Part shown: positions 8,742-18,202 of the stretch, one piece after another
Position numbering within the stretch: position 1 is the first letter of the stretch
Layout: each line of letters opens with the position of its first letter
Source of the DNA: Rikenella microfusus
GTDB lineage: Bacteria > Bacteroidota > Bacteroidia > Bacteroidales > DYQK01
Length of the DNA stretch: 36,069 nt
Assembly (NCBI GenBank): GCA_020719385.1
Contig: DYQK01000024.1
Span: forward strand, 1 to 36,069
Direction of reading: 5' to 3'
The notes under the pieces: generated by a model
Database searches by the model: none
The model's input: only the letters and a program-made list of their open reading frames with translations
Told to the model about the DNA's origin: nothing
Position numbers and translations under genes: made by a program

Positions 8742-8780
8742 CTTCTCAAGATTTTTAGAATCTTGAGAAGTTTTTTTTTT
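8742..8780 (+). terminator. Strong hairpin terminator after the lipoprotein genes
   Basis: A perfect 12-bp stem CTTCTCAAGATT/AATCTTGAGAAG with a 5-nt loop is followed by ten T residues. It lies between convergent genes. The sense of the T-run fits the plus-strand lipoprotein transcript. Confidence 0.85.
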
Positions 8781-9159
8781 ACTTCATTCGAACAGGTTTA
8801 TGATTTTCATTGACAGAAACCAATGTAAACAGACTTTCCACCGCTTTTTTGCGATTTTCCGTATACATTTCTTCGACAAAAATTTCGACCAACACTTCGA
8901 TTTTTAATTTTCCAACGTTCACAATTTTTCCAATTATTTCAACTATTGTTCCTGCTTTTATGGCAGCGAGAAATTGCGTTTTTTCGACAGAAAGTGTAAC
9001 CATTTTCATTTTTGTGAAGCGTGTTGCGGTAATATAAGCGACTTCGTCCATCCATTGCATTGCTGTTCCGCCGAATAATGAGTCATTTGCGTTCAAAGTA
9101 TTGGGGAAAATCGCCTTAAATTGGCGGGTTTCGGCATTTTTAATTTTTATTTCACACAT
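8779..9159 (-). CDS. Hotdog-fold acyl-CoA thioesterase
   Basis: The track ORF (217 aa) is over-extended through an AT-rich leader. ATG at 9159 gives a 126-aa protein starting MCEIKIKNAE, the normal size for a single hotdog domain. The family motif is NANDSLFGGTAMQWMDEVAYITA, with the N-x-x-G-x-(L/F)-F-G-G and Asp-Glu signature of YciA/BfiT-type acyl-CoA thioesterases. It should hydrolyse acyl-CoA in the cytoplasm; chain-length preference is not visible. It is a single gene, divergent from the TonB receptor and convergent with the lipoprotein operon. The upstream reading frame overlaps the TonB promoter and start codon, which argues against the long start. Confidence 0.82.
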   Translation of the reverse strand: MCEIKIKNAETRQFKAIFPNTLNANDSLFGGTAMQWMDEVAYITATRFTKMKMVTLSVEKTQFLAAIKAGTIVEIIGKIVNVGKLKIEVLVEIFVEEMYTENRKKAVESLFTLVSVNENHKPVRMK

Positions 9160-9193: not shown

Positions 9194-9224
9194 TTTGTTT
9201 TTGAACATAAGTTCATTATCTTTG
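9194..9224 (+). promoter_or_regulatory. Promoter for the TonB receptor-mrp operon
   Basis: TTTG at 9194-9197 and TATCTTTG at 9217-9224 are 19 nt apart, a textbook Bacteroidota sigma-ABfr-type promoter. The predicted start near 9230 leaves a very short leader before ATG 9248. Confidence 0.75.
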
Positions 9225-9247
9225 CCCCGAAATAAATTTTCAAAAAA

Positions 9248-11458
9248 ATGAAAAAATATATTATTTTATCTCTTTTTGTTTTGTTTTCTTTTTTGATAAA
9301 CGCACAAAATATTATCAAAGGGAAAATTTTTGACAGCAAAACGAATGAAAATTTAGTCGGCGTAAATATTTTTGCTCTCGAAATTAACAACGGTTGTATT
9401 TCAGACGAAAACGGCGAATTTATTTTGTCCAATTTGCCCGATGGAAAAATTAAATTACAATTTTCTTTTGTTGGTTATAATAACGAGGTAAAAACGTTTA
9501 TTTTAAACAATTCTACTGAAGAAATTAATATTTCGTTGCAACAATCTGTTGTCGAGACGCAAGAGATTGTCGTTTCGGGAGGTTATCATTCAACGCAGCA
9601 CGAAAACGCAGTGAAAATTGATGTTTTGAAATTAAAAAATAATTATCAACAGATTTCTCCGAATTTTACAGAGATATTAACTCAAATTGCAGGTGTTTCG
9701 ATGATTTCAAAAGGAAATTCAGTGTCGAAACCCGTGATTCGCGGACTCTCGATGAATGAAATATTAATTTTAAACAATGGTTTTCGAATCGAAAATTATC
9801 AATATTCGGAAAATCACCCGATGGGAATCGATGAATTTGGTGTTGAAAATGTTGAAGTAATTAAAGGTCCGGCTTCTCTGTTGTATGGTTCTGACGCAAT
9901 GGGCGGCGTAATTAATTTTATAAAAGAAAAACCCGCTAACGAGGGCGAAGTTCTTGGCAATTATGACGCACAATTTTTTTCGAATTCTCTTGGTATCTCG
10001 CATCATTTGGGCATCAAAGGTGCTGCGAAAAATATTTTTGGCAATTTACATTTGGCACAAAAAACTCATTCTGATTATTTGCAGGGCGGCGGGCAATTTG
10101 TCCCGAATTCTCGATTTAACGAATATTCGGTGAAAAGTAATGTTGGTTTTACATCGCATTCTGGCATTTTTAATTTATTTTATGATTTTAATCATCAGAA
10201 TCTCGGAATGACCGTGCCGCCCGCTATTTCTGTTATTCACACAAGAGATAGAAAAAACGAAATTTGGTATCAAAATCTGTCGAATCATTTAATTGCTTCG
10301 CAAAATAAACTCTTTTTGGGAAATTATAAGTGGGAAATAAACACTTCTTATCAACTTGCGTTGCGAAGATTAAACACAACTTCAGACATTCCGTTTGTCG
10401 AAATGAATTTACAAACTATTTCTTACGAAACAAAATTGCATTTGCCGTCTTCGAAAACTTCGGAATATATCATTGGTTATCAAGGGTTTACACAAACAAA
10501 TGAAAATTTGAACCAACGCTTGTCGCAATTTCTTCCTAACGCAAAAATATTTGCTCATTCAGTTTTTTCAATGTTTCAGTATACGTTTTTCGACAAGTTG
10601 ATGATACAAACAGGACTTCGAGGCGATTACAACAACATTTATACGTCAGATTTGGGAAAAATGGGAAATGCAGATTTTCATCCGTCTGTTTCGAAAAATT
10701 ATACGAATATAAGTGCTTCTTTGGGGGCAACATTTACGCCTGTTTCGAAAATTATTTTTCGCAGTAATTTTGCCACAGCCTTTCGAACTCCGAATTTAGC
10801 CGAATTAACTTCTAACGGAATGCATGGCAGCCGTTATGAACTCGGAAACGAAAATTTAAAACCCGAAAAAGCATACGAAACTGACGCAAGTATTCATTTT
10901 CACGGAGAAAATCTTACTTTCGACATAGCAGGTTTTTATAATTCTATCGAAAATTATATTCACATTGCTCCGCTTTCTGATTCATTAAACAGATTTCAAT
11001 TTCAACAAACAAACGCTTTTCTCCTCGGCGGCGAAGCAGGAATACATTTTCATCCGCAAAATTTTCACTGGTTGCATTGCAAAATAACTTTCTCCAATGT
11101 TATCGGAAAAAAAGAAAACAACGAATATTTACCGTTTATTCCTGCACAAAAATTAAATTTCGAAGTGCGAGTTAACAAAGAAAAATTGTTGTTTTTCAAA
11201 GATATTTTTGTTAAATTGCACTCAACAATGGTTTTTGAACAGTCAAAAGTGGCAGTTGGTGAGATAAAAACAGAAGGATATACCTTATTTGACGCAAATT
11301 GTGGGTTTAATATTTCTCGTTTTATTATCTCGCTTGGTGTGAATAATATTTTTGATAAAAAATATGTCGATCATTTATCCACATTAAAAATGATAAATTT
11401 TTATAATTCGGGCAGAAATTTCACTTTTTCAGTGAAAATTCCGTTTCAATTAAAATAA
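9248..11458 (+). CDS. TonB-dependent outer-membrane receptor
   Basis: A 736-aa receptor with a signal peptide (cleavage near INA-Q), a carboxypeptidase-regulatory-like domain at about 22-105 (IIKGKIFDSKTNENLVGVN, DENGEFILSNLPDG), a plug at about 115-230 (IRGLSMNEILILNNG, VIKGPASLLYGSDAMGGVI) and a 22-strand-type barrel ending in an aromatic-rich strand, SGRNFTFSVKIPF. The barrel keeps the family block FATAFRTPNLAELTSNG and GNENLKPEKA. It imports a small ligand using TonB energy; no SusD partner is present, so a glycan is less likely than a metal, siderophore or cofactor. It is directly followed, after 9 bp, by an Mrp-NifX fusion with a metal-binding tail, which supports a metal-related substrate (inference). 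Confidence 0.9.
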   Translation: MKKYIILSLFVLFSFLINAQNIIKGKIFDSKTNENLVGVNIFALEINNGCISDENGEFILSNLPDGKIKLQFSFVGYNNEVKTFILNNSTEEINISLQQSVVETQEIVVSGGYHSTQHENAVKIDVLKLKNNYQQISPNFTEILTQIAGVSMISKGNSVSKPVIRGLSMNEILILNNGFRIENYQYSENHPMGIDEFGVENVEVIKGPASLLYGSDAMGGVINFIKEKPANEGEVLGNYDAQFFSNSLGISHHLGIKGAAKNIFGNLHLAQKTHSDYLQGGGQFVPNSRFNEYSVKSNVGFTSHSGIFNLFYDFNHQNLGMTVPPAISVIHTRDRKNEIWYQNLSNHLIASQNKLFLGNYKWEINTSYQLALRRLNTTSDIPFVEMNLQTISYETKLHLPSSKTSEYIIGYQGFTQTNENLNQRLSQFLPNAKIFAHSVFSMFQYTFFDKLMIQTGLRGDYNNIYTSDLGKMGNADFHPSVSKNYTNISASLGATFTPVSKIIFRSNFATAFRTPNLAELTSNGMHGSRYELGNENLKPEKAYETDASIHFHGENLTFDIAGFYNSIENYIHIAPLSDSLNRFQFQQTNAFLLGGEAGIHFHPQNFHWLHCKITFSNVIGKKENNEYLPFIPAQKLNFEVRVNKEKLLFFKDIFVKLHSTMVFEQSKVAVGEIKTEGYTLFDANCGFNISRFIISLGVNNIFDKKYVDHLSTLKMINFYNSGRNFTFSVKIPFQLK

Positions 11459-11467
11459 AAAAGTGTT

Positions 11468-12664
11468 ATGCACAAAATCGAAAAAGTAACTTTGCCGAAT
11501 GTGAAGTATGTTGTTGCTGTTGCGGCGGGCAAAGGTGGTGTTGGGAAATCTACGGTTGCGGCGAATCTTGCCCTTTCGTTTGCCCAAAATGGTTATAAAA
11601 CCGCGTTAGTCGATGCCGATTTATTTGGTCCTTCGATTCCTATCTTGTTCGGGCTGGAAAAAGAACGCGGAATGATAGAAATTATTGACGAAAAACAAAT
11701 GTTTGTCCCTGTCGAAAAATTCGGCGTGAAATTGATGTCGATTGGTTTTCTTGTCGATTCCGAACAAGCGTTGATTTGGCGTGGTCCAATGGCGGCGAGT
11801 GCCTTGTTGCAATTATTCAGTGAAACAAATTGGGGCGAAATAGATTTTATGGTCGTAGACCTTCCGCCCGGAACAAGCGATATTCCGCTGACTTTATGCC
11901 AGCAGGTCGATGTTGATGGAGTAATTATCGTTACAACGCCCCAATTACTTTCCATATCTGACGTGATAAAAGCGATAACAATGTTTCGCAACCGCGATTT
12001 AAACATTCCTCTCTTGGGAATAGTCGAAAATATGTCGTGGTTTAGTCCTGTTGAGCATCCTGATGAGAAATATTTCTTATTCGGAAAAGATGGCGGCAAA
12101 ATTTTGGCAGAAAAATACTGTTTAGAATTGTTGTCGCAAATTCCGTTGGTGCAAGGAATGAGCGAAGCAGCAGACAAAGGCAGTTTTTACAATTATTCGC
12201 AAAGTAAAATCGTACAAGATATTTATCGCGAATTAGTAAGCAAATTATTAACGAAATTAAACAGCAGAGAAATGAAAATTGCAGTTCCTGTTACTTCAAA
12301 TTTTGAAATTGATGATCATTTTGGTCATTGTGAATTTTACAACATTTATACAATTTCTGACAAAAACGAGATTGTTGATGTTGAAAAATTAGAATCTCCG
12401 CAAGGTTGCGGCTGTAAATCTGACATTGCGAGTGTTTTATCTCAGAAAAATGTGTCAATAATGCTTGCAGGCGGCATCGGCGATGGAGCAATAAACGTTT
12501 TAAACAGAGTCGGAATCGAAGTGATTCGCGGCTGTTCGGGCAAATCAGAAGATGTTATAAAATTGTTCTTGTCGGGTTTAATCAAAGATAACGGAGAAAG
12601 TTGCCAACAACATACCGAACATCATGCTGACGGCAAAGAACACGTTTGCAGTCATAAAAACTGA
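11468..12664 (+). CDS. Mrp/NBP35-type P-loop ATPase fused to a NifX-like (FeMo-cofactor) domain
   Basis: A 398-aa fusion. Residues 1-265 are an Mrp/ApbC-type ATPase implicated in Fe-S cluster transfer: deviant Walker A GKGGVGKST (about 21-29), DADLFGPSIP, and DLPPGTSDIPLT. The usual C-terminal CPxCG cluster ligand is absent; after VENMS comes WFSPVEHPDEKYFLFG, the variant I recall from Bacteroidota. The usual N-terminal MIP18/DUF59 domain is also missing. Residues from 269 form a NifX/dinitrogenase iron-molybdenum cofactor-type domain (MKIAVPVTSNFEIDDHFGHC, ESPQGCGCKSD, MLAGGIGDGAI). The tail carries many His and Cys (CQQHTEHHADGKEHVCSHKN) and should bind metal. It is co-transcribed with the TonB receptor. 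Such pairs occur in anaerobes, but their cargo is not settled. Confidence 0.85.
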   Translation: MHKIEKVTLPNVKYVVAVAAGKGGVGKSTVAANLALSFAQNGYKTALVDADLFGPSIPILFGLEKERGMIEIIDEKQMFVPVEKFGVKLMSIGFLVDSEQALIWRGPMAASALLQLFSETNWGEIDFMVVDLPPGTSDIPLTLCQQVDVDGVIIVTTPQLLSISDVIKAITMFRNRDLNIPLLGIVENMSWFSPVEHPDEKYFLFGKDGGKILAEKYCLELLSQIPLVQGMSEAADKGSFYNYSQSKIVQDIYRELVSKLLTKLNSREMKIAVPVTSNFEIDDHFGHCEFYNIYTISDKNEIVDVEKLESPQGCGCKSDIASVLSQKNVSIMLAGGIGDGAINVLNRVGIEVIRGCSGKSEDVIKLFLSGLIKDNGESCQQHTEHHADGKEHVCSHKN

Positions 12665-12680
12665 CAATTTGTCAGGTTTT
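12661..12680 (+). terminator. Short hairpin overlapping the mrp stop codon
   Basis: CTGACA-att-TGTCAG followed by GTTTTTG. The TGA stop of the mrp-nifX gene lies inside the left arm. The stem is short (6 bp), so termination is probably partial and could let some transcript reach the OsmC gene. Confidence 0.5.
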
Positions 12681-12779: not shown

Positions 12780-13184
12780 ATGAAATCAAATTCTCTTTGG
12801 ACGCAACAGTTTCAGTCTGTGGTTAATAATGGCAGAAATCACAGTTTAGTTTTAGATTTGCCTGCTGAAAAAGGCGGCAGTAATAATGGACCTTCGGCTC
12901 TCGAATTGTGTTTGATGAGTATGAGCGGCTGTGCGAATACAATTTTTGCAATGATTGCTCAAAAAATGCGTCTTCCTTTCGAAAAATTGGAAGTTGATGT
13001 CTTCGGCGAGCAAAAAGACAATTCCCCCACTTTTACCGATGTTAAACTGATTATTTCGATAAAAACATCGGAGGAAATGGAAAAAATCGAGAAATGTTTG
13101 CAAATAACTTTAAACACTTGCCCTGTTGGGATTTTGTTTAAACAAGCAGGCGTGAATATTTCCTACGAAATCAAAAAATTATAA
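12780..13184 (+). CDS. OsmC-family peroxidase-like protein
   Basis: A 134-aa OsmC/Ohr superfamily protein. The two reactive cysteines are visible: C51 in LMSMSGCANTIF and C114 in NTCPVG. The family reduces organic hydroperoxides with a thiol donor or acts on related sulfur chemistry, in the cytoplasm. The pattern MSGC is typical of the general OsmC/YhfA-like group rather than Ohr. It sits between the Mrp-NifX fusion and the DUF134/sulfur-lyase operon, so it belongs to a redox and sulfur neighbourhood. The 115-bp gap upstream holds no clear -7 element, so read-through from the mrp gene is possible. Confidence 0.82.
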   Translation: MKSNSLWTQQFQSVVNNGRNHSLVLDLPAEKGGSNNGPSALELCLMSMSGCANTIFAMIAQKMRLPFEKLEVDVFGEQKDNSPTFTDVKLIISIKTSEEMEKIEKCLQITLNTCPVGILFKQAGVNISYEIKKL

Positions 13185-13432: not shown

Positions 13433-13837
13433 ATGACAAGACCTAAACGTCAGCGGAAGATGTGTGTTCCTCCCGAAATGCAAGGTTTTAAACCTTTTGG
13501 TATACCGAAATTTCACTTGGAAATGGTTACTTTGCTTTTCGAAGAATATGAAAGTATCAAACTTCTTGACTACAACGGTTTAACACAAGAGCAAGCCGCT
13601 GAGAAGATGAACGTTTCGCGTTCCACTTTGACAAGAATTTACGAAAATGCGCGTCGCACTATTGCAAAAGCCTTTGTCGAGGGGAAAATTATTGTCATCG
13701 GAGGTGGAAATGTAAAATTTGAAACCGAATGGTTTCGATGCAAAAAATGTTTTCGCTTAATTGCAGGAATCGAAAATCATATTCAATGTAAAAATTGTTT
13801 GACATACAACTCTAACGAGTTAATAAAAATTTCTTAA
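13433..13837 (+). CDS. DUF134-family HTH protein with C-terminal zinc-ribbon-like Cys pairs
   Basis: A 134-aa DUF134 protein, recognisable by the opening TRPKRQRKMCVPPEMQGFKPFG. A sigma-70 region-4-like helix-turn-helix follows at about 50-85 (LTQEQAAEKMNVSRSTLTRIYENAR), so DNA binding is likely. The C-terminus holds two CxxC pairs (CKKC and CKNC) about 15 residues apart, a probable zinc ribbon or metal sensor. In many anaerobes DUF134 genes sit beside NifX-like and Mrp genes, as here. The gene leads a probable operon with the PLP lyase (17-bp gap) and the peroxiredoxin, so it may regulate them or the upstream Mrp fusion (inference). Confidence 0.85.
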   Translation: MTRPKRQRKMCVPPEMQGFKPFGIPKFHLEMVTLLFEEYESIKLLDYNGLTQEQAAEKMNVSRSTLTRIYENARRTIAKAFVEGKIIVIGGGNVKFETEWFRCKKCFRLIAGIENHIQCKNCLTYNSNELIKIS

Positions 13838-13854: not shown

Positions 13855-15036
13855 ATGGATATCGAAAAATCAGGTTTTAACACCAAATTAATTCACGGTG
13901 GCGATTACAAAGACCCTTTCGGTTCAGCGACCGTTCCCATTTATCAAACTTCGACTTTTGCTTTCGAAAATGCCGAACATGGAGCAAAGTGTTTTGCAGG
14001 CGAAAGTGACGGTTACATTTACACACGAATCGGAAATCCGACCATCTCGGCGTTGGAAAAACAAATTGCGATTCTCGAAAACGGCTACGGCGGAATTGCG
14101 GTCAGTTCAGGAATGGCTGCTGTAACAACGGTTTATCTCGCATTATTGAACAGCGGCGATCATGTGGTCAGCACTGACGCAATTTATGGTCCCGCACGCG
14201 GAATAATGGAAAAACAATTTTGCCGTTTCGGCGTTCAGTCAACATACATCAATACGACTAACATCGCCACTATCGAAAACGCATTGCGTCCTAACACAAA
14301 AATGTTGTACATCGAGACGCCTGCGAATCCGACAATGGAGATCACCGACCTTGTTGCGTGTGCTGAGTTAGCCCACAAACGCGGAATAGTTTTAGTTGTT
14401 GACAATACTTTTTGCAGTCCGTATTTGCAAAATCCCTTAGATTTGGGTGCCGATGTAGTATTTCACTCAATGACAAAATTTATCAACGGTCATGCTGATG
14501 TTGTTGCAGGAATCATTGTTGCGAAGGAAAAAACGTTGTACGATAAGTTGCGTTCAATGATGATTTATTCGGGCTGCAATATGGATCCTCATCAGGCATA
14601 TTTGGTTTTGCGCGGTTTAAAAACCTTGTCGTTGCGTATTGAACGCGCGCAAGAAAACGCAAAGCAAATTGCAGTATTTTTAGAGAATCATCCGAAGGTT
14701 GCTTGGGTGAAATATCCGGGTTTAAAATCTCATCCGCAATATGAATTGGGCAAGCGACAAATGCGCGGCAGTGGTTCAATGATAAGTTTTGGGTTAAAAT
14801 CGGGGTTCAAAGGTGCAGAGATTTTAATGAATAATGTTCATTTGGCACTTTTGGCTGTTTCTCTTGGTGGAGTTGAAACGTTGATTCAGCATCCTGCTTC
14901 AATGACACACGCAAAAGTTTCTGCTGCAGACAAGTTAAAAGCAGGAATTACTGACGATTTAGTTCGTTTTTCAGTCGGCATCGAAGATGTTGCTGACATT
15001 ATTGACGATTTAAAACAAGGTTTAGACAAAGTTTAA
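13855..15036 (+). CDS. megL: Cys/Met metabolism PLP enzyme, probable methionine gamma-lyase
   Basis: A 393-aa PLP fold-type I enzyme of the cystathionine gamma-lyase/synthase family. The PLP lysine lies in HSMTKFINGHADVV (about K208). Other cofactor-pocket blocks are SSGMAAVTTVYLAL, YTRIGNPTISALEK and DNTFCSPYLQNP. The ending AGITDDLVRFSVGIEDVADII is typical of methionine gamma-lyases, which split methionine to methanethiol, ammonia and 2-oxobutyrate; cystathionine gamma-lyase or O-acetylhomoserine sulfhydrylase activity cannot be excluded. The loop cysteine of the well-studied P. putida enzyme (YGCTF) is replaced here by YGPAR. It lies between DUF134 and a peroxiredoxin, consistent with sulfur/thiol redox control. 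Confidence 0.8.
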   Translation: MDIEKSGFNTKLIHGGDYKDPFGSATVPIYQTSTFAFENAEHGAKCFAGESDGYIYTRIGNPTISALEKQIAILENGYGGIAVSSGMAAVTTVYLALLNSGDHVVSTDAIYGPARGIMEKQFCRFGVQSTYINTTNIATIENALRPNTKMLYIETPANPTMEITDLVACAELAHKRGIVLVVDNTFCSPYLQNPLDLGADVVFHSMTKFINGHADVVAGIIVAKEKTLYDKLRSMMIYSGCNMDPHQAYLVLRGLKTLSLRIERAQENAKQIAVFLENHPKVAWVKYPGLKSHPQYELGKRQMRGSGSMISFGLKSGFKGAEILMNNVHLALLAVSLGGVETLIQHPASMTHAKVSAADKLKAGITDDLVRFSVGIEDVADIIDDLKQGLDKV

Positions 15037-15057: not shown

Positions 15058-15762
15058 ATGAGTAACGAGATGATTTCTCTTCCCCGCATCGGTGATGTTG
15101 CCCCTTCGTTTAAAGCGGTAACAACGCAAGGTCCAGTTAATTTTCCTGAAGATTATAAGGGTAATTGGGTGATATTATTTAGTCATCCTGCAGATTTTAC
15201 ACCTGTTTGCACTTCTGAGTTTATGACTTTTGCAAGTATGGAATCGCAATTTAATGCGGCAAATTGTAAATTGCTTGGTTTGTCTGTTGATGGTTTGTTT
15301 AGTCACATTGCGTAGCTTCGAACGATTAAGGAAAAAATTGAGTACAAAGGAATGAAAAATGTTGAGGTTAAATTTCCTTTAATCGAAGACATAACGATGG
15401 AAATAGCCCACAAATACGGTATGATTCAGCCCGGCGAGAGCAACACAAAAGCTGTTCGTGCAGTATTTTTTATTGACCCGAAAGGCATTATTCGTGCAAT
15501 GATTTATTATCCGCTGAGTTTAGGTCGCAATTTTGATGAACTTTATCGTGCTTTGATTGCTATGCAAACTGCCGATGCTTATCAAGTTGCAATGCCCGCT
15601 GACTGGCGTCCCGGTGATGACGTTATTGTTCCGCCTGCGGGTTCTTGCGGTGTGGCAAAAGAACGCATGGAATCACAAGGCGATATTAAGTGTTATGACT
15701 GGTTTTTTTGCACAAAACCTATTAAAAAAGAGGAGATAGAAAAAACAATTTTGAAGAAATAA
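15058..15762 (+). pseudogene. Peroxiredoxin (Prx6/archaeal-type) interrupted by an in-frame TAG
   Basis: The two track ORFs (15058-15315 and 15352-15762) are one reading frame broken only by TAG at 15313-15315. Read through, it is 234 aa: a peroxiredoxin reducing peroxides by a cysteine thiol. The peroxidatic Cys is C51 in ADFTPVCTSEF. The block after the stop (LRTIKEKIEYKGM...KFPLIED) continues the family without loss. The position is HIA-stop-LRTI, where relatives normally have Trp (HIAWLRTI), so TGG to TAG is the simplest change. The C-terminal part has KCYDWFFCTK, the extra-Cys end of the larger Prx6-like thioredoxin peroxidases. It is 21 bp after the PLP lyase. Either a true recent nonsense mutation or a base error. 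Confidence 0.85.
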
Positions 15763-15975: not shown

Positions 15976-16019
15976 GCACTCTTAAAATTAAAGTTTTAAT
16001 CAATTTAACATTGATGTTT

Positions 16020-16985
16020 ATGAAAAAAATTGGCATATTATTTGGTCAGGAAAATACTTTTCCTCCTGCACTTGTTGAGGAAATAAATAAAAGAAATGAG
16101 GACGGTATTGTTGCCGAATTCGTGAAAGTTGGGAATGTTTATCAAGATATTCCAACTGATTACTCTGTTATTATTGACCGTATTTCGCAAGATGTTCCAT
16201 TTTATCGTGCTTATTTAAAAATGGCTGCTGCAAATGGAACTGCCGTCATCAACAATCCTTTTTGGTGGAGTGCTGACGAGAAATTTTTCAATAACGTTCT
16301 TGCCACAAAAATCGGAGTTCCTGTTCCCAAAACGGTTTTAGTTCCTTCTTTCGAACATCCGACAGACACAACCCCGCGTTCTTACCGCAATTTGACTTTC
16401 CCAATGGACTGGGAATCGATATTTAACTATACAGGTTTTCCTGTTTATATGAAACCTCACGCAGGTGGCGGCTGGAAAAGCGTTTATAAACTTGATACTC
16501 CTGAATCGTTGTTCCGCGCACACAGCGAAACAAATCAACTCGTTATGATGGTACAAGAGGAGATTACGTTCCAAGAATATTTTCGTTGTTATTGTTTGGG
16601 TGGAAAATATGTGAGAATTATGCAATATGAGCCTCGAAATCCTCATCATTTGCGTTACATTCGCGAGGGTGCTTGTGAGAATAAAAAACTTTTGAAAACC
16701 ATCGAAAATTATGTTCTTGCCCTCAACGAATGGTTGGGTTATGATTTTAACACGGTGGAATTTGCGGTTCGCGATGGCATTCCTTACGCAATAGATTTTT
16801 GCAATCCAGCTCCTGACGCCGATGTTAACTCTGTTGGACAAGACAATTTCGAATGGGTTCTCGAAAATGCCGCTAATCTTGCTATTGAAAAAGCAAAAAA
16901 TTACAAAGAGGGACAAATGAACCTCACTTGGGGCAAATTTGTGAAGCAAAGTGCAAGTGGAAAAGGTTTTCCACAAGGACGTTAA
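16020..16985 (+). CDS. ATP-grasp carboxylate-amine/thiol ligase of unknown substrate
   Basis: A 321-aa protein from ATG 16020; the track start at TTG 16011 adds only three residues. The architecture fits an ATP-grasp ligase: an N-terminal pre-ATP-grasp domain (KIGILFGQENTFPPALV), a central lysine-bearing strand with the Gly-rich loop (VYMKPHAGGGWKSV), a QEEI hinge-like segment, and a C-terminal metal-binding block (EFAVRDGIPYAIDFCNPAPD). Such enzymes activate a carboxylate as an acyl phosphate and couple it to an amine. The gene stands 98 bp before a GCS2-type ligase with a hairpin between them. The two together look like a two-step peptide-like ligase pathway. Substrate not deducible. Confidence 0.78.
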   Translation: MKKIGILFGQENTFPPALVEEINKRNEDGIVAEFVKVGNVYQDIPTDYSVIIDRISQDVPFYRAYLKMAAANGTAVINNPFWWSADEKFFNNVLATKIGVPVPKTVLVPSFEHPTDTTPRSYRNLTFPMDWESIFNYTGFPVYMKPHAGGGWKSVYKLDTPESLFRAHSETNQLVMMVQEEITFQEYFRCYCLGGKYVRIMQYEPRNPHHLRYIREGACENKKLLKTIENYVLALNEWLGYDFNTVEFAVRDGIPYAIDFCNPAPDADVNSVGQDNFEWVLENAANLAIEKAKNYKEGQMNLTWGKFVKQSASGKGFPQGR

Positions 16986-17016
16986 TATTTTTTATCGCAA
17001 TAAACTCTATTTCTCG

Positions 17017-17055
17017 GTACTATCTTTTTGCAAAAAAAGAGATAGTACTTTTTTC
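17017..17055 (+). terminator. Hairpin between the ATP-grasp and carboxylate-amine ligase genes
   Basis: GTACTATCT (17017-17025) pairs with AGATAGTAC (17040-17048), with an imperfect inner TTTTTG/CAAAAA stem, followed by TTTTTT. It could terminate after the ATP-grasp gene or attenuate expression of the second gene. Confidence 0.75.
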
Positions 17056-17083
17056 AAATTTTTCATAAAAAAACTTTGCCACT

Positions 17084-18202
17084 ATGACGAATCTTAATGA
17101 ATTAACTCTCGGCGTCGAAGAGGAATATCAGATAATTGACCCCATAACACGAGATTTAACTCTCTCCGAACATACAATTATCGACGAGGGAAACGCAATT
17201 CTCCCCGGACAAGTAAAAGCAGAAATGCACCGCGCCGTTGTTGAAGTTTCGACAAAAATTTGTAAAAATATCAAAGATGTTCGCGAGGATGTTACGTTGC
17301 TTCGAAAAAACGTAATTCAAATTGCAGAAAGTCAGGGTTTACACGTTGCCTCTGCCGCAACGCATCCCTTCGCTCAATGGAAAGACCAAGCAATTACCGA
17401 CTTGCCCCGATATGAACAAGTTGTTGAGGAGTTGCAAGACGCAGCACGTTCAAATTTAATTTACGGACTTCACGTACACGTAGGAATCGGAACGCGTCAG
17501 TTAGGGGTTTATTTGATGAACGCCGCAAGATATTTTTTGCCACATATTTTTGTCCTGTCAACCAATTCTCCATTCTTCGACGGCAGAAATACAGGGTTTA
17601 AATCTTTCAGAACAAAAGTTTTTGATAAATTCCCCCGAACAGGAATCCCCGATTTTTTTCAAACAACAGGCGAATATGACGATTACGTTGATTTATTAGT
17701 CAGAACAAATTGCATTGACAACGCAAAGAAAATTTGGTGGGACATTCGCGTTCACCCGTTTTTCCCAACCGTCGAGTTTAGAATTTGCGATGTAACTTTG
17801 CGAATTGATGAAACCGTCGCTATTGTCGCATTGATTCAAGCACTTGCCGCAAAAATTTTGCGTCTCAGACAACGAAATTTAATGTTCAGACAATATAGCC
17901 GCGCTTTGATTAACGAAAATAAATGGAGAGCCGCTCGTTACGGACTTGATGGAAAAATGATTGACTTCGGCAGAGAACAGGAATACCCCGCTAAATCTTT
18001 GATTTATGAATTGTTATATTTCGTCGAAGAAGTTGTTGATGATTTAGGTGTTCGCAACGAGATAAGTTATATTCACAAAATTCTCGAAATGGGAACAGGG
18101 GCAGACAGACAATTGGCTGTTTATAATCAGACAAAAGACCTCAAAAAAGTTGTTGATTTCATTGTTTCGGAAACAAAATTGGGAATAGATTTTTCGAAAT
18201 AA
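17084..18202 (+). CDS. Carboxylate-amine ligase, GCS2/YbdK family
   Basis: A 372-aa member of the glutamate-cysteine ligase family 2 (YbdK type). The diagnostic N-terminus LTLGVEEEYQIIDP contains the acidic metal/ATP residues; GLHVHVGIGTR and TVEFRICDV are further active-site blocks. Family members form an amide bond to a carboxylate with ATP; E. coli YbdK shows weak gamma-glutamylcysteine ligase activity, but the natural product is not established. The length matches the family. It is the second gene beyond the ATP-grasp ligase and is closed by a terminator. The pairing recalls gshA/gshB logic with non-homologous or divergent enzymes, so a thiol or peptide metabolite is possible (inference). 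Confidence 0.88.
   Translation: MTNLNELTLGVEEEYQIIDPITRDLTLSEHTIIDEGNAILPGQVKAEMHRAVVEVSTKICKNIKDVREDVTLLRKNVIQIAESQGLHVASAATHPFAQWKDQAITDLPRYEQVVEELQDAARSNLIYGLHVHVGIGTRQLGVYLMNAARYFLPHIFVLSTNSPFFDGRNTGFKSFRTKVFDKFPRTGIPDFFQTTGEYDDYVDLLVRTNCIDNAKKIWWDIRVHPFFPTVEFRICDVTLRIDETVAIVALIQALAAKILRLRQRNLMFRQYSRALINENKWRAARYGLDGKMIDFGREQEYPAKSLIYELLYFVEEVVDDLGVRNEISYIHKILEMGTGADRQLAVYNQTKDLKKVVDFIVSETKLGIDFSK

Follow-up and report, generated by a model that had tools for sequence, protein, structure and literature searches.

The stretch analysed here (the window, 36,069 nucleotides of contig DYQK01000024.1 of Rikenella microfusus) carries a two-gene operon for a TonB-dependent outer-membrane receptor and a fusion of an Mrp-type ATPase to a NifX-type domain. 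We lean towards a reading in which this operon belongs to a regulon defined by a DUF134-associated operator box, and couples the import of a metal or metal chelate to an ORP-like metallocluster carrier. The genome (3.66 Mb, 98% complete) was compared with those of relatives among the Bacteroidales. The open reading frames of the receptor (9248-11458) and of the fusion (11468-12664) lie on the + strand with a gap of 9 bp, and a single Bacteroidetes-type promoter precedes the pair. The initial annotation had placed the two genes 9 bp apart behind one promoter, and the coordinates and promoter elements confirm this. The features of the operon are as follows.

9194-9224, + strand: Bacteroidetes-type promoter, with the -33 element TTTG at 9194-9197 and the -7 element TATCTTTG at 9217-9224
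9202-9215, no strand assigned: palindromic candidate operator TGAACATAAGTTCA, a TGAAC-N4-GTTCA box in the -33/-7 spacer
9248-11458, + strand: TonB-dependent outer-membrane receptor, 736 amino acids (aa), from Pfam/NCBIfam, PDB sequence matches and an AlphaFold model
11468-12259, + strand: Mrp/NBP35-type P-loop ATPase domain of the fusion, of the 'short' type without MIP18 and with no CxxC
12026-12058, + strand: ENMSWFSPVEH, at the position of the CxxC of canonical Mrp
12272-12661, + strand: NifX/Di-Nase (PF02579) domain of the fusion, with HFGHCE and GCGCKS motifs
12602-12661, + strand: His/Cys tail CQQHTEHHADGKEHVCSHKN of the fusion
12661-12675, + strand: weak terminator-like hairpin overlapping the fusion stop codon (a consensus match only, with a site count near the shuffle mean)

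The operator box is a perfect palindrome that fills the spacer between the -33 and -7 elements. This spacer is the usual position of a repressor, and repression is the mode of action we would expect. The box is the sole exact copy in the window, and the sole exact one in the part of the genome that was scanned (about 438 kb, ~12%). The motif was first noticed in the window and only afterwards looked for in the relatives. The enrichment ahead of DUF134 genes therefore checks it independently and is not where it came from. Exact TGAAC-N4-GTTCA boxes were found 16 times in 15 of 32 DUF134 upstream regions. Their density there is 2000 per Mb, and it falls to 33 per Mb across 2336 other upstream regions. 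The position of the boxes is also constrained: in the fetched loci, 2.77 Mb in all, 19 exact boxes are followed after exactly 1 bp by TAnnTTTG, against an expectation of about 0.04 (64 boxes at a density of 0.00064), and the box of our operon, 1 bp ahead of its -7 element, has the same spacing. The consensus of 21 composites of box and -7 element is ATTATGAACrTAnGTTCATTATCTTTG. Boxes head NifX, small NifX and DUF5320-like operons too. For example, the genome G017 has two boxes before a related fusion gene and two before its DUF134-NifX operon. When one mismatch was allowed, boxes preceded four of nine receptors linked to such clusters and none of 49 unlinked ones (Fisher P 0.0003).

Which protein reads the box? 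The DUF134 protein of the window (13433-13837) is the only one of its genome and has, by Pfam, a helix-turn-helix resembling sigma region 4. The GAAC half-site resembles the -35 core read by region 4 of extracytoplasmic function (ECF) sigma factors. Since the box precedes DUF134 genes and a region-4-like helix-turn-helix fits its half-site, DUF134 is the best candidate binder, and its conserved C-terminal cysteines (C103, C106 and C122) could sense a metal or a cluster. The chances seem to us evenly balanced that DUF134 regulates a Bacteroidales metallocofactor regulon, in which TGAACN4GTTCA-N-TAnnTTTG jointly controls the receptor and the carriers of the ORP-like cluster and thereby couples metal import to cluster assembly. 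The main rival regulator is a protein of the Crp/FNR family, responsive to oxygen, NO or redox, in which case the receptor and the fusion would take part in an anaerobic or stress response and not in DUF134 metal sensing. The 5-4-5 geometry of the palindrome fits sites of this type (FNR, HcpR), and Crp-type genes lie near some receptors (loci L072, L073, L081, L200 and L211). However, the resemblance of the half-site to the target of a sigma region 4 points to DUF134, and boxes cluster upstream of DUF134 itself. Among NifX-anchored loci, they occur in 15 of 21 with a DUF134 gene and in none of seven without it (hand count). HcpR regulons share the 5-4-5 operator geometry, but their published motifs, TTGACnnnnGTCAA and GTAACnnnnGTTAC (PMC1274295), both differ from the box here, TGAACnnnnGTTCA, and on this ground we rejected HcpR as its owner. 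We therefore consider control by a Crp/FNR-family protein improbable.

The second line of evidence is the genomic linkage of the receptor. Orthologues (E <= 1e-140) were found in 65 of the 393 genomes of the order, and 64 loci were fetched. In nine of the 65 genomes, from nine different families, the orthologue has a PF02579 (NifX-type) or DUF134 gene at a distance of 5 kb or less. Random placement predicts 0.38 such cases, i.e. an excess of ~24x (P about 3e-10) in a test that used all DUF134 and the listed PF02579 positions of the receptor-bearing genomes, took a flat genome size of 4 Mb and treated genomes as independent. The layouts vary from one family to another, and this variation suggests that the linkage arose independently. 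Genes on the same strand follow the order DUF134-smallNifX-NifX-c4-receptor with a box at the operon head (L220), receptor-DUF5320-like-MinD-ferredoxin x2-NifX (L241) or ORP-like cluster-Mrp-receptor (L086), and in L235 the receptor overlaps, on the same strand, a NifX gene that encodes an internal run of His. Elsewhere, a Fer4 protein gene precedes the receptor by 27 bp (L072), or a methionine gamma-lyase gene follows it after 11 bp (L245). The L235 protein (2355-2690) belongs to PF02579, its internal His run reads HTHNHDHSHNHSQEEHKH, and its gene shares 4 bp with that of the receptor. In at least 27 of the 64 fetched loci, the receptor is preceded by a small His/Cys-rich membrane protein that we call c4 (HHHEH...HFH...C, ending in LLRAPP), possibly a periplasmic metal partner of the receptor. 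It has no Pfam match (L089 7759-8100, L092 7345-7686 and 25 other loci).

These patterns bear on the possibility that the neighbourhood reflects chance or read-through, with the receptor inserted between a thioesterase and ORP-like genes without any functional tie. The exact receptor-fusion order is unique to the window, most orthologous receptors are located elsewhere, and a thioesterase directly flanks DUF134 in three relatives (L057, L079 and L095), together with NifX in two of them. Yet linkage in nine families at ~24 times the expectation, and a box inside the receptor's own promoter, leave this explanation very little probability. It had initially been proposed that uptake is linked to metal-cofactor handling. 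This interpretation is partly supported, on other and stronger grounds than those first given, by the recurrence of the receptor beside PF02579, DUF134, MinD-ferredoxin and Mrp genes in nine families and by the shared operator box; that the substrate is a metal is inferred only. Searches of the open-access literature found no description of a receptor-ORP/NifX link or of a DUF134-box regulon. As far as they show, both the recurrent receptor/ORP-like linkage and the DUF134-associated operator, taking in this operon, are new.

The receptor has Pfam domains CarbopepD_reg_2, Plug and TonB barrel, and thus the plug and beta-barrel of the TonB-dependent type. Its PDB sequence matches are OprC, heme receptors and ZnuD, and the structures nearest to its AlphaFold model are those of ZnuD, OprC and ChuA, a heme importer. 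These proteins have the same fold (TMq about 0.7) but only 17-20% identity to the window receptor, which, unlike them, carries an extra carboxypeptidase-regulatory-like N-terminal domain. The receptor scores below every NCBIfam cut-off shown. We rejected an assignment of the substrate by homology, as the protein stays below the threshold for each of the heme, Cu and Zn families; its closest folds (ZnuD, ChuA, OprC) are all those of importers of metals or heme. Could the receptor simply serve the uptake of heme or iron, and the fusion, as the sole Mrp/NBP35 protein of the genome, act as a general Fe-S delivery factor in an iron-limitation operon without a dedicated cofactor? The best NCBIfam score is to the hemin/hemoglobin family, though far under its cut-off, ChuA is among the best fold matches, and there is no other clear Mrp in this 98% complete genome. 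Against this, the fusion has no CxxC for a bridging 4Fe-4S cluster, and the recurring partners of the receptor in other families are PF02579, DUF134 and MinD-ferredoxin genes and not a general Fe-S system. We regard this alternative, like that of a Crp/FNR-type regulator, as unlikely.

The fusion has 398 aa, with a NUBPL/Mrp ATPase at residues 11-260, PF02579 at residues 280-368 and the tail at residues 379-398. The deviant Walker A motif GKGGVGKST is present, as in Mrp/NBP35 (ApbC), and the Pfam scan reported no MIP18 domain. In the structure model, both domains are confident and the tail is disordered. At the position of the CxxC, the fusion reads ENMSWFSPVEHPDEKYFLFG. None of the 31 Bacteroidales Mrps examined has the CxxC, whether or not it bears an N-terminal MIP18-type extension; the motif ENM[SAT][WY]F.P... 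stands in its place. MIP18-less Mrps form an older clade (bootstrap/SH-aLRT 99/97), which holds 'short' Mrps and all four fusions found. The NifX half begins at the same MKIAVP that opens stand-alone NifX proteins, after a linker of a few residues, and the tail pattern C..H..HH...H.C.H recurs in the majority of stand-alone NifX homologues, whose identity reaches 69%. The absence of MIP18 and the His/Cys tail are, from these comparisons, inherited from older 'short' Mrps and tail-bearing stand-alone NifX proteins. Hence, the initial annotation was right that, relative to E. coli-type Mrp, the fusion lacks the CPxCG ligand and MIP18, and that it carries a NifX-like domain with a His/Cys tail, but it erred in treating these as traits of the fusion: the loss of CPxCG is lineage-wide, the MIP18-less form is that of the older clade, and the tail is not an invention of the fusion.

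Fusions are rare, with two in the 393 genomes of the order plus two in rumen genomes. They split into two groups of the tree, and because an unfused sister is nested inside each, the fusion of Mrp to NifX probably arose at least twice and not as a single old event. One unfused Mrp, 70% identical (G047), lies on a short contig and is closely followed there by the beginning of a NifX gene. A conserved receptor-fusion gene order, also envisaged initially, was not borne out: among the four fusions found, only that of the window (1/4) has the receptor upstream. A FecCD-type ABC transporter takes this place in G017, and in the rumen genomes it is taken by a Cys/Met-metabolism enzyme and a nucleoside kinase-like gene. 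The G017 fusion (L076 112-3313) follows three ABC transporter genes, for a FecCD permease, an ATPase and a 386-aa protein.

The regulon reading suggests the following mechanism. Scarcity of the sensed metal or metallocluster would release the promoter from repression exerted at the palindrome in its -33/-7 spacer. The TonB receptor would then be made and carry its scarce ligand, be it a metal, a metal chelate or something heme-like, into the periplasm, while the co-transcribed Mrp-NifX protein would handle the metal or a metal-sulfide cluster in the cytosol. The NifX half (HFGHCE, GCGCKS and the His/Cys tail) would bind the cargo and the ATPase half drive its release or transfer, with a CxxC-less Mrp as the presumed agent of cluster transfer. 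The fusion would stand in for the fuller ORP-like set of the relatives, made of small NifX proteins, two MinD-ferredoxin ATPases and Mrp. Because only NifX-side ligands remain in the fusion, the simplest reading is that the NifX domain would hold the metal or cluster and the ATPase would act as the motor.

Several observations weigh against this reading. About 85% of the orthologous receptors are not near a cluster, and the c4 partner is absent from the window genome, which also shows no clear match to a MinD-ferredoxin protein. No box precedes the DUF134 gene of the window itself, and two rumen fusions (L096 and L097) have neither box nor receptor. The genome G103 has near-perfect boxes but no DUF134 (PF02001) match, although it is 99% complete. 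Finally, in the Mrps that have been studied, the ATPase domain requires CxxC to bind Fe-S, and the fusion has none. The G103 boxes (L241 6522 and 4265, minus strand) are two one-mismatch copies with -7 elements, and a divergent regulator possibly serves them.

The genes 3' of the fusion encode, in order, OsmC, DUF134, a methionine gamma-lyase-like enzyme and a peroxiredoxin. The neighbours of the operon are:

8779-9159, - strand: acyl-CoA thioesterase, divergent from the operon
12780-13184, + strand: OsmC-family protein (Pfam; OsmC also adjoins Mrp in L082)
13433-13837, + strand: DUF134 protein, candidate regulator of the box, with a sigma-region-4-like helix-turn-helix and C-terminal Cys pairs
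13855-15036, + strand: methionine gamma-lyase-like enzyme, a recurrent neighbour of the NifX/ORP-like cluster and of the receptor

A single in-frame TAG (15313-15315) interrupts the peroxiredoxin gene (15058-15762), whose frame is intact before and after it; this may reflect a recent pseudogene, an assembly error or read-through. Downstream of the cluster, an ATP-grasp (RimK-like) gene lies beside a GCS2 carboxylate-amine ligase gene (16011-18202).

The regulon would offer a role for DUF134 and for the widespread NifX/ORP-like clusters of anaerobes, so far without assigned function. Simple tests of the de-repressing metal, of import by the receptor and of the cargo of the fusion become possible, since the operator is defined, a regulator is predicted and the receptor appears to be co-regulated. 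If the reading is true, the operon would be a case of a CxxC-less Mrp working with a NifX domain, a kind studied so far only in CxxC-bearing forms.

How does this system compare with known ones? In the Bacteroidales, the short Mrp of named genomes with enough flank usually closes a colinear cluster of DUF134, small NifX, small NifX-2, two ferredoxin-insert MinD-type ATPases and Mrp, which resembles the ORP system of Desulfovibrio. Canonical Mrp was never on the same contig as a PF02579/DUF134-type marker in 21 receptor-bearing genomes (hand-read). The window genome is reduced, with one PF02579 protein and one DUF134; no canonical Mrp was found in it, the fusion being its only Mrp/NBP35 protein, and the lack of a clear MinD-ferredoxin match led us to reject the fusion as a member of a full ORP set there. 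Stand-alone Bacteroidales NifX-type proteins (PF02579), up to 69% identical, have the same GCGCKS core and tail but, unlike the window protein, are not fused to Mrp. By its domains, the fusion is of a known kind, MrpORP (Orp9/DVU2109, Dde3202; NF041136), described in Desulfovibrio with Fe-S in both domains and an ATPase-bound cluster that requires CxxC (PMC6345978). The fusion differs from it in having no CxxC in the ATPase domain, in the replacement of the first Cys of CXHFGHCE and in its match to NF041136 (360 residues, 313.8 bits, below the cut-off of 450). It also differs in having arisen inside the Bacteroidales short-Mrp clade, in its place beside a TonB receptor under a TGAAC box, and in that association with ORP complex genes is found for its unfused short-Mrp relatives but not in the window genome. 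Like MrpORP, it joins an Mrp P-loop domain to a PF02579 Di-Nase domain in one chain, it has an HFGHCE motif and a terminal Cys-His motif (IDDHFGHCE, CSH), and its Bacteroidales lineage sits in ORP-like clusters with ferredoxin-bearing MinD ATPases (PMC6345978).

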